Part shown: positions 29,057 to 31,001 of the stretch, one piece after another
Position numbering within the stretch: position 1 is the stretch's first letter
Layout: each line of letters opens with the position of its first letter
DNA from: Formosa agariphila KMM 3901
GTDB lineage: Bacteria; Bacteroidota; Bacteroidia; Flavobacteriales; Flavobacteriaceae
Assembly: GCF_000723205.1 (NCBI RefSeq)
Contig: NZ_HG315671.1
Coordinates: forward strand, 1,523,351 to 1,587,350
Reading direction: 5' to 3'
DNA length: 64,000 nucleotides
Program-made: the position numbers and the translations under genes
The notes under the pieces: generated by a model
Databases searched by the model: none
Told to the model about the DNA's origin: nothing
The model's input: only the letters and a program-made list of their open reading frames with translations

Positions 29057-29770
29057 TTATAGAAGCGGAAGTATGTAATTAAATAGTAATCCGCAACCAA
29101 TAGCTAGACCGAAACTTAGTAGGGTACCAATTAAAATGTATTCTGTTAACTTTCGGTCTTTTGCTTTAGATAAATCTCCAAACCTAAATACCGATTTTGC
29201 TGTAATTAAAAACCCAATACCGGCCCAATAATTTAAAACGATAAAAGTAAACACAAACAATCGCTCTAACATGCCTATGTAAGCACCTGCATCTTTAAGT
29301 GAAGCTTCATTGGTTTCCTCCAATTGCCATTTAGAAATTATAATTTTCATAATTATAGAAGAGACTACAGTAACAAAAATAATACAGCATATGGCGAGTA
29401 ATATTTTAGGATCGTATATGGTGTCTATAGTTATGGTAAATGGTTCGTAAATACGAACAACTATAGCTATTAAAGTAAGATGTGCCAATTGATCTAAGCA
29501 AAATAACCAACGCGAATTTACAACACCGTTTAGGTGTAGTTTTATGGCATCAATTATAAAATGCGATACAGTAAGAATTACAATGCCCCAGATGTATTTA
29601 AAGCTAAATTGAAGGACAAATAAAAGCGCTATAAAATGAATTGCTATATGTGCATATAGGTACTTCGATTTTATTTTGTGTTTTTCTTTATCTGCCACCC
29701 ATTTACTAGGTTGTAATAAAAAGTCACCAACTAAGTGGGCAAGAAGTAGTTTTATAAAAAGTACAATCAT
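29057..29770 (-). CDS. DUF3307 domain membrane protein
   Basis: 237 residues with six or seven hydrophobic helices. The N-terminus LAHLVGDFLLQPSKWVADKE and the helix-2 HIAIHF histidines are the DUF3307 signature. Function is unknown. It overlaps the end of the SatD-like gene by 4 bases (ATGA), so translation is coupled; pairs of DUF3307 with SatD-like proteins are a recurring arrangement as far as I know. Confidence 0.82.
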   Translation of the reverse strand: MIVLFIKLLLAHLVGDFLLQPSKWVADKEKHKIKSKYLYAHIAIHFIALLFVLQFSFKYIWGIVILTVSHFIIDAIKLHLNGVVNSRWLFCLDQLAHLTLIAIVVRIYEPFTITIDTIYDPKILLAICCIIFVTVVSSIIMKIIISKWQLEETNEASLKDAGAYIGMLERLFVFTFIVLNYWAGIGFLITAKSVFRFGDLSKAKDRKLTEYILIGTLLSFGLAIGCGLLFNYILPLL

Positions 29771-30363
29771 GGTTGAACGTTTTTAGTGTAATACTGAATC
29801 ATTTTTAATATTTCGTCGTAACCCGCACGTTTTAGTCCTTGGCTAATATTACCCTGAGTACTTTGTGTTAGTTCTGCCAATTCTATTTGGTTTGCTTCAG
29901 GTTTTGTAAGTGCTAGTTTTACTAAAGACGCTGTAGTTGGTGTCCATGTATTCATGGTTATTAAAGCCAATTCGAGCATGATGTTTATTGGAATATCAAA
30001 TTCTGTACGTCCAGATTTTACTGCTAAATTTGTTTTCTTTAATTGTTCAAAGCATTCGCCAGAATTAATAAAAGCACTCCCATTGGATTCGGTTATATGG
30101 TCTGCATCGTATGTTTTTTCTCCAATTCCAATGGCCAATCTAACATCTATAGTTTTAAATTGTTTTAAACTTGCTTTTATTAAAATTGCCGCTTTTAAAG
30201 CATCTTTAAGAGGAAGTTCTATTTGAAAACTATCACCTCTATATACTTCCCATTGTTTTGGAGTTTCTCCATAAAGAGCGAGTTGCGATTTTAATTCTGT
30301 TAACCAATCGTTAGCATCTTGTCCTCTAGAATTTATAATATCTCCTGTAATTATACTCGTCAT
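29767..30363 (-). CDS. SatD-like regulator
   Basis: 198 residues from the ATG at 30363 (an upstream in-frame TTG at 30384 lies inside the -7 box and is rejected). The N-terminus MTSIITGDIINSRG and the middle (WEVYRGDSFQIEL; DVRLAIGIGEK) match the SatD family, named from the acid-tolerance sat locus of Streptococcus mutans. The C-terminal 60 residues (LAELTQSTQGNISQGLKRAGY) look like a winged helix-turn-helix, so a DNA-binding role is likely. Its promoter region carries three palindromes at 30415-30490, good candidates for its own sites. Confidence 0.75.
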   Translation of the reverse strand: MTSIITGDIINSRGQDANDWLTELKSQLALYGETPKQWEVYRGDSFQIELPLKDALKAAILIKASLKQFKTIDVRLAIGIGEKTYDADHITESNGSAFINSGECFEQLKKTNLAVKSGRTEFDIPINIMLELALITMNTWTPTTASLVKLALTKPEANQIELAELTQSTQGNISQGLKRAGYDEILKMIQYYTKNVQP

Positions 30364-30381
30364 TCGTAAATAGCTTTGTTT

Positions 30382-30412
30382 CAAATATATTCGATTTCAT
30401 ATGGAATTCAAA
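30382..30412 (-). promoter_or_regulatory. Promoter of the satD-like/DUF3307 operon
   Basis: On the minus strand a perfect TTTG, 19-nt spacer and TATATTTG. Its -33 element ends 2 bases from the first palindrome of the 30415-30490 array. Confidence 0.8.
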
Positions 30413-30414
30413 AT

Positions 30415-30490
30415 TATTAGCTAAAAAACTAATAATATAAATTATAAGCTTAAAAGCTAATATTTTAGTTTATTAGTTTTAAGTCTAATA
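30415..30490. repeat. Three regularly spaced 20-bp palindromes (operator array)
   Basis: Sites at 30415-30434, 30443-30462 and 30471-30490 share TATTAG-N8-CTAATA (the middle one has TATAAG in its left arm). Their starts are exactly 28 bases apart, with 8-base gaps. They lie between the divergent satD-like and mscL promoters. The form fits dimeric regulator binding sites; the nearby SatD-like protein is the best candidate regulator. Confidence 0.75.
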
Positions 30491-30507
30491 TTAAGAGAGT
30501 AATTCTT

Positions 30508-30538
30508 TTTGAGAAACTAGAGATTAAAAATATATTTG
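30508..30538 (+). promoter_or_regulatory. Promoter of mscL
   Basis: A perfect TTTG (30508-30511), 19-nt spacer, TATATTTG (30531-30538). A Shine-Dalgarno-like AGGAG follows at 30548-30552, only 2 bases before the ATG. Confidence 0.8.
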
Positions 30539-30554
30539 CTCAAAAAAAGGAGTT

Positions 30555-31001
30555 ATGAAATTAATACAAGAATTTAAAGAGTTTGCGATTAAAGGGAATA
30601 TGATCGATATGGCTGTTGGTATTATAATTGGAGCGTCGTTTAATAAAGTTATCGATGTTATGGTGAAACAAGTTTTTATGCCACCATTATCTTTACTATC
30701 AGAAGGGATTCATTTTCAAGATAAAGTTTGGGTGCTTAGAGATGCTATAAAGGATGCGAGCGGAACAGTAATAGTAGAAAAAGTTGTTATAGGTTATGGT
30801 GCGTTAATAGAGGCTTTAATAGATTTTTTAATTATTGGATTTACTGTATTTATCGTTGTAAAGTTTATGAACAGACTGCGTAACAAATCGCAAGATCCAA
30901 AAGATAAAACCGTTGTAACTCCAAAAGATATTCAATTGTTGTCTGGGATAACTGAATTGCTAGAAGAACAAAACACGTTATTAAAAACTAAATCGAAATA
31001 A
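30555..31001 (+). CDS. mscL: Large-conductance mechanosensitive channel MscL
   Basis: 148 residues. The first helix carries the family signature (KGNMIDMAVGIIIGASFNKVI), then MPPLSLL, a periplasmic loop, the second helix (LIEALIDFLIIGFTVFIVVKFMN) and a C-terminal cytoplasmic helix. It is a pentameric valve that opens on hypo-osmotic shock. It is divergent from the satD-like gene, shares the palindrome array with it, and is ended by the hairpin at 31006. Confidence 0.96.
   Translation: MKLIQEFKEFAIKGNMIDMAVGIIIGASFNKVIDVMVKQVFMPPLSLLSEGIHFQDKVWVLRDAIKDASGTVIVEKVVIGYGALIEALIDFLIIGFTVFIVVKFMNRLRNKSQDPKDKTVVTPKDIQLLSGITELLEEQNTLLKTKSK

Follow-up and report, generated by a model that had tools for sequence, protein, structure and literature searches.

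The intergenic region between a satD-like gene and the divergent gene mscL of Formosa agariphila KMM 3901 carries three regularly spaced palindromes, which raises the question of what protein reads them and which of the two neighbouring genes they serve. Both proteins of the satD side, SatD and DUF3307, are known from annotations in bacteria and archaea and have no settled function. The window, as the term is used here, is the whole stretch of 64,000 nucleotides that was analysed, and its features that are relevant to the question are the following (positions are those of the window).

29057–29770, minus strand: second operon gene, encoding a DUF3307 protein (PF11750, E = 2.8e-28)
29767–30363, minus strand: satD, encoding a SatD-like protein of 198 aa with a predicted palm domain (cyclase/Cas10-type) and a C-terminal helix-turn-helix (HTH)
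29827–29856, minus strand: SatD residues 170–179, predicted recognition helix, holding N172, Q175 and G176, which covary with the half-site
30004–30363, minus strand: SatD residues 1–120, predicted palm domain, with Asp8 and Asp44 conserved without exception across 21 diverse SatD proteins
30382–30389, minus strand: −7 box of the satD promoter, TATATTTG (direct read)
30409–30412, minus strand: −33 box of the satD promoter, TTTG (direct read), coinciding with a linker of the 28-bp lattice
30415–30434, no strand: putative operator palindrome 1, TATTAG-N8-CTAATA (half-sites 30415–30420 and 30429–30434)
30443–30462, no strand: putative operator palindrome 2, TATAAG-N8-CTAATA (half-sites 30443–30448 and 30457–30462)
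30471–30490, no strand: putative operator palindrome 3, TATTAG-N8-CTAATA (half-sites 30471–30476 and 30485–30490)
30508–30538, plus strand: mscL promoter, TTTG-N19-TATATTTG (direct read), 17 bp past palindrome 3
30555–31001, plus strand: mscL (PF01741), divergent neighbour, outside the conserved module

Direct reading and a pattern search gave the same three palindromes, TATTAGCTAAAAAACTAATA (30415–30434), TATAAGCTTAAAAGCTAATA (30443–30462) and TATTAGTTTTAAGTCTAATA (30471–30490), and the geometry that the sequence-only reading had described, with 8-bp gaps, a 28-bp period and a single TATAAG arm in the middle copy, was found to be exact to the base. The six half-sites form one lattice, in which TATTAG-type and CTAATA-type hexamers alternate at a step of exactly 14 bp, and 35 of their 36 letters agree (mean of 1000 dinucleotide shuffles, 25.0; maximum, 29). 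Both divergent promoters are of the Bacteroidota consensus type and, again as first read, both have the form TTTG-N19-TATATTTG, with the −33 box of satD 2 bases away from the first palindrome and that of mscL 17 bases past the third (TTTG at 30508–30511, followed by N19 and TATATTTG at 30531–30538). The satD ATG is at 30363 and mscL starts at 30555. On the other side of satD, the satD stop and the DUF3307 start share 4 nt (ATGA, 29767–29770), an overlap that suggests translational coupling of the two genes.

Lone palindromes are not enriched in the genome (57 matches with up to one mismatch, as compared with 66 in a backwards control), and a regulon made of single palindromes was ruled out because there is no excess over that control. 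A lattice of three half-sites has two perfect matches genome-wide, both within the window array; with up to three mismatches, 165/164 matches were found genome-wide and 184/225 in the control, that is, no excess. A weaker TATNAG lattice, consisting of two palindromes with mismatches at an exact 28-bp spacing, is present at G000:C1:3432032–3432079 (approximately 5033–5080 of L141), where it precedes a 63-aa open reading frame among other short ones; as a second array of this genome it was set aside as probably due to chance.

The array might alternatively be an RNA element, a terminator, a cruciform or a mobile repeat, since 30415–30451 and 30454–30490 make up a 37-nt imperfect inverted repeat that is 78% complementary. 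The array is upstream of both predicted promoters here and is therefore in neither predicted transcript, a position that rules out the RNA element. By taking into account also the lack of a second perfect lattice in the genome, the change of the letters among species while the period and the promoter phase stay, and the covariation with SatD that is described below, all the explanations of this kind become hardly credible.

Conservation of the palindromes upstream of homologous satD/DUF3307 operons had been set as the test of the original proposal. A SatD profile built from 18 relatives matched 249 of the 395 Flavobacteriaceae genomes searched, once per listed row. From these genomes, from the genus and from named contigs, 128 satD loci were taken and reduced to 122 by dropping 6 with repeated proteins; these 122 represent the better-scoring matches and are nearly all from Flavobacteriaceae, with one named Brumimicrobium and one metagenome-assembled genome labelled Chlorobiota. 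The three-palindrome score exceeded the 99% shuffle level in 112 of them, and 117 did so with either two or three palindromes. The same cut-off was passed by 39 of 40 further loci, which are lower in the ranking, are relatives of the first set and were held out. Thus, the array is conserved where the test had called for it. Five loci (L019, L105, L117, L124 and L128) fall below both cut-offs, and L124 has no visible array. When offsets from 9 to 19 were scanned against periods from 24 to 33, only the period of 28 gave a peak, at offset 14 (32.16 of 36), with values of 23.8–25.4 for the other periods. DUF3307 directly follows satD in all 122 loci, and the −33 box falls at a linker of the lattice in 75 of the 81 loci with a good promoter match.

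The sequence-only reading had also entertained control of mscL by the array. In its strongest form, the array would be a switch common to both genes that connects the tension-gated channel with the SatD signal, as would fit the divergent satD–mscL pair found in 41 of the 122 loci (stretches reaching 0.6–3 kb upstream) and the near-constant distance of 17–20 bp between the array and the mscL −33 box in six Formosa loci. However, mscL was not found in the stretches examined, of the same reach, in the other 81 satD loci, and outside Formosa the array and the mscL promoter are anywhere from 6 to 159 bp apart, with no mscL promoter recognized in 19 of the 41 mscL-adjacent loci. When the 30 best-matching mscL loci were inspected, the 8 beside satD were found to carry the array (29–35 of 36 letters), but the 22 away from satD all lack it (20–26 of 36), which rules out arrays at mscL in general for this set of loci. 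Control of mscL does not hold, therefore, as a general statement, and a shared switch is improbable. The array belongs to satD, as judged from sequence, because it keeps its phase to the satD promoter and, outside Formosa, no fixed distance to mscL; the link to mscL is mostly one of neighbourhood, and in Formosa mscL may be affected locally. A second, distant mscL-like match (34% identity) is found in the same genome at G000:C1:48096–48503, with two TAA in the aligned stretch, and similar second matches are present in many relatives.

Information on the protein that reads the array came from the half-site letters, which vary among species (TATTAG, TATCTG, TATCGG, TATTCC and others), while the outer TAT is mostly kept. 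Mutual information was calculated between 196 SatD positions and the half-site bases in 120 of the 122 loci. Position 175, in the predicted recognition helix, ranked first for bases 4, 5 and 6, position 169 second for bases 4 and 5, and position 172 third for base 5; a separate scan without the near-invariant SatD positions agreed on 175, 169 and 172. Of these residues, T169 of the window protein immediately precedes the recognition helix and also covaries with the half-site. Gln at position 175 is paired with A at base 5 (TATTAG, TATAAG), Glu with C at base 4 (TATCTG, TATCGG, TATCGT) and Lys with C at base 6 (TATTCC, TATTAC). A rule was written accordingly, with E175 requiring C at base 4, Q175 requiring A at base 5 and not C at base 6, and K175 or R175 requiring C at base 6. 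It is right in 102 of 106 testable loci (36/37 for Glu, 50/50 for Gln, 13/14 for Lys and 3/5 for Arg), as compared with a mean of 39.5 and a maximum of 57 in 10,000 shuffles, and it holds both in the loci without Arg at residue 176 (74/77) and in those with it (28/29). Fixed beforehand, the rule fits 27 of 29 testable held-out loci, all 18 Gln loci among them being of one HTH type; the exceptions are L249 (Glu with TATTGG) and L250 (Lys with TATAAA). The remaining 11 held-out loci have Ser, Thr, Asn or Met at residue 175, with TATCA(C/T) in 10 and TATTCC in one.

Relatedness of the loci could mislead a covariation analysis, and for this reason a tree was built from SatD residues 1–140 alone. 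On this tree, residue 175 changes at least 27 times. The strict independent-pair test of Treekit, restricted to starred branches, leaves only 1–2 pairs per trait and has no power; pairs were also counted on all branches, including those without strong support. Under this condition, the association of Glu with C at base 4 is represented by 13 independent pairs, of which on average 11.7 are concordant, 0 opposite and 1.3 ties; all 7 pairs are concordant for the Gln trait, and the 9 pairs for the Lys/Arg trait give 6.2 concordant, 0 opposite and 2.8 ties. Two loci that are sisters on the N-terminal tree, L057 and L066, differ in having E175 with TATCTG and K175 with TATTCC, respectively; read from the sequences, this difference is a recent change of specificity.

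The lattice was also searched for across 16 genomes, with up to 2 mismatches and with TATTCC (8 genomes) or TATCTG (8 genomes) as the half-site. It was found at satD in 15 of them, with off-site matches amounting to 2 in all the genomes together, each with 2 mismatches, as compared with 3 in the reversed control. The sixteenth genome (G109) had been queried with TATTCC, but its SatD has Asn at position 175 and its own array is TATCATG, which fits the code.

It is in principle conceivable that another DNA-binding protein reads the array and that SatD, an uncharacterized protein, merely travels along with it. However, of 196 SatD positions, the one that best predicts three half-site bases is a residue of the recognition helix, and the rule derived from it fits loci that had been held out, so that such a reader is very improbable. 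That a single regulator serves the three sites and controls the satD/DUF3307 operon, as first proposed, is supported by the conserved array (112/122 and 39/40 loci), by the covariation and by the near-restriction of the lattice to satD. The further suggestion that SatD itself is this regulator gains from the same residue–base covariation and from the finding of the lattice almost only at satD in the 16 genomes. It is thus very likely that SatD binds the array and controls satD–DUF3307. Cooperative binding is inferred from the spacing alone.

We consider it highly probable that the array is SatD's own operator, to which SatD dimers would bind cooperatively to repress satD–DUF3307 until a signal read by the palm domain releases them. 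Each palindrome would bind a SatD dimer through the C-terminal HTH. Neighbouring dimers could touch because half-sites recur every 14 bp, and the contact between them, perhaps through the palm domains, would lead to cooperative, filament-like binding. Palm domains pair up in related cyclases. SatD would in this way repress its own operon, and the palm domain would read a signal, plausibly a nucleotide, that relieves or strengthens the repression; both the sign of the regulation and the nucleotide nature of the signal are inferred.

Repression is the most likely sign because the lattice and the satD promoter are in phase. The array lies over the −33/−7 region in 64 of the 83 loci with a good promoter match and downstream of it in 1, a count made with a lenient half-site criterion (4 of 6 letters) in AT-rich DNA, where the best promoter match is sometimes far upstream; autorepression is therefore favoured. 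In Formosa itself, the array is found just upstream of the −33 box, which it leaves uncovered, an arrangement that also fits activation. According to this alternative, SatD would bind the array but activate the operon, since the nearest Formosa palindrome almost touches the −33 box and an activator in that position could contact RNA polymerase. Consistent with it, the array ends no more than 10 bp upstream of the −33 box and leaves the promoter free in 18 of the 83 loci, the window included. Also, 35 of the 41 mscL-adjacent loci have a recognizable satD promoter, and in 26 of the 35 the gap between the array and the −33 box is 1–3 bp (of the other 9, 7 are displaced by roughly one period and 2 match neither position). 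On the other hand, the lattice covers the promoter in the larger part of the loci, by the same lenient count, and reaches to 4–5 bp before the start codon in four of them (L114, L121, L122 and L131); a change of sign within one regulator family is unlikely, and a filament formed cooperatively at upstream sites could extend across the promoter. Activation is, on the whole, rather unlikely.

As to the protein, the window SatD matches no Pfam family at E ≤ 1. Of the 18 proteins in its alignment, 14 hit PF16264 (secretion and acid tolerance protein D) at E ≤ 1, with 6e-10 as the best value, and the profile of the Flavobacteriaceae-type SatD aligns with a PF16264 set from other families with an hhalign probability of 98.94 (E 1.1e-17, 146 columns). 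The motifs GDI..S, GD(E/S)FQ, R..IG.G and G..F and a C-terminal HTH are common to the two, and the satD–DUF3307 pair, a feature of the SatD family, is present here. The AlphaFold model shows a palm domain and an HTH, with helix 170–179 occupying the position of the HTH recognition helix, and the solved folds nearest to SatD in a structure comparison with VIA-align include Cas10/Cmr2. SatD is thus predicted, from the model, to join a fold of the palm (cyclase/GGDEF/Cas10) superfamily to an HTH. Residues D8 and D44, invariant in the 21 diverse SatD sequences, are putative metal ligands, a role suggested by a weak colinear alignment with cyclases. The pooled SatD profile is weakly similar to class III nucleotide cyclases and GGDEF domains (E 7.5e-4 and 5.1e-4, reversed controls 0.28 and 0.30), as calculated with alignments of 31 and 35 rows, each drawn from 30 loci, in which a few rows may be of the wrong strand; the PF16264 subset compared with cyclases gave an E value of 0.012, no better than that for reversed cyclases (0.011). 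The sequence likeness of SatD to GTP cyclohydrolase III is also weak, and a sequence search of the PDB returned HTH regions, 14-3-3 and other unlikely matches, with the class III cyclase 1ybt at E 0.1.

The array is not limited to the Flavobacteriaceae. In a phylum sample of 392 Bacteroidota genomes, 84 contained a PF16264 match. Among the best 30 of these 84 loci, the scan peaked at period 29 and offset 13 (mean, 29.87), with approximately 23–24 for periods except 28–29; all but L144 and L155, thus 28 of the 30, beat all of 50 shuffles. Period 29 scores best in 25 of the 30 loci, period 28 in 4 and period 21 in 1. Two lattice geometries are thus present within one protein family: the PF16264 set from other Bacteroidota (L144–L173) mostly has period 29 and offset 13, whereas the kin of the window protein, the 122 Flavobacteriaceae-type loci, have period 28 and offset 14. 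In Alphaproteobacteria, three palindromes at 28 bp precede satD in the named plasmid records of Sphingomonas and Agrobacterium. In haloarchaea, two to three palindromes at 29 bp precede satD in a Natronosalvus plasmid, and two palindrome pairs with 29-bp steps are found upstream of satD in plasmids of Halorientalis and Haloplanus, where the sequence was read by eye. The latter two (L204 and L205) have GTTCG-type palindromes, with 29 bp within a pair and approximately 47 bp between pairs, and they count as one because they are nearly identical in the region of the satD array. The two-palindrome score exceeded all of 200 shuffles for the five genera; that of the Fusobacterium vincentii satD locus (L209), which has no array, did not beat all shuffles. 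DUF3307 is also annotated beside satD in Halorientalis and Haloplanus, and the gene after satD is annotated as a hypothetical protein in Sphingomonas, Agrobacterium and Natronosalvus.

Autorepressors with tandem operators are known among phage repressors, toxin–antitoxin systems and controller proteins: they are small HTH proteins that bind cooperatively to repeated palindromes at their own promoter, and their specificity diverges among relatives. SatD differs from them in having its HTH joined to a nucleotide-cyclase-type palm, in the regular lattice of half-sites and in its occurrence in both bacteria and haloarchaea. A repressor that binds repeated palindromes of its own is of a known kind; new to us are the palm-HTH protein, the regularity of the lattice, its archaeal spread and the readable code. 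Among the papers listed by the literature searches, in which subscription journals are mostly not covered, none dealt with an operator of SatD or with the function of DUF3307, and none described the combination of a palm of the cyclase/Cas10 type with a periodic operator array. With the present analysis, SatD gains a concrete likely job as transcription factor of its own operon, and a palm of this type is joined to a periodic putative operator array; the putative SatD binding site can be read in many species, and the residue-to-base code can be tested by one amino-acid change.

A broader and rather doubtful reading takes SatD–DUF3307 as a widespread, Panoptes-like nucleotide-signalling module of bacteria and archaea, in which the small palm of the Cas10/cyclase type would make or sense a nucleotide that keeps DUF3307, as a membrane effector, in check, and SatD, polymerized through its HTH on the lattice of 28–29 bp, would couple the signal to expression of the module. 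If so, DUF3307 would be set free or made in excess once the signal or SatD is lost, and the fast-changing half-site code would reflect a pressure for private operators. Panoptes consists of mCpol and 2TM-beta (PMC12657230, PMC12657218), and it resembles the present pair in that a small palm-domain protein is encoded with a membrane protein; it differs in that the partner of SatD is DUF3307 rather than 2TM-beta and in that SatD has an HTH and an array of its own. In Pfam, the partner matches only PF11750 (DUF3307) at E ≤ 1, with no match to 2TM-beta, and the words SatD, DUF3307 and helix-turn-helix do not appear in PMC12657218. No PADLOC family (2023 database) was matched at E ≤ 1 by the window SatD, by DUF3307 or by the SatD of L023, and assignment to a defence system was for this reason ruled out. 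No match of SatD was found in phages at E ≤ 0.01; DUF3307 is similar to a phage family annotated as a membrane protein. According to PMC11323703, satD of Streptococcus pyogenes is accessory (178 of 249 genomes) yet seemingly essential in transposon studies, a pattern that would be expected of a protein restraining a harmful partner. That SatD restrains DUF3307 is a guess, based on the constant pairing of the two genes and on this report, and the array makes the question testable.

The arrangement of the genes is different in one plasmid record, that of Aerococcus tenax (L210), where the SatD-like gene is not the first of its row and is found after genes annotated as ribonuclease-domain and barstar-family proteins and before a DUF975 gene.
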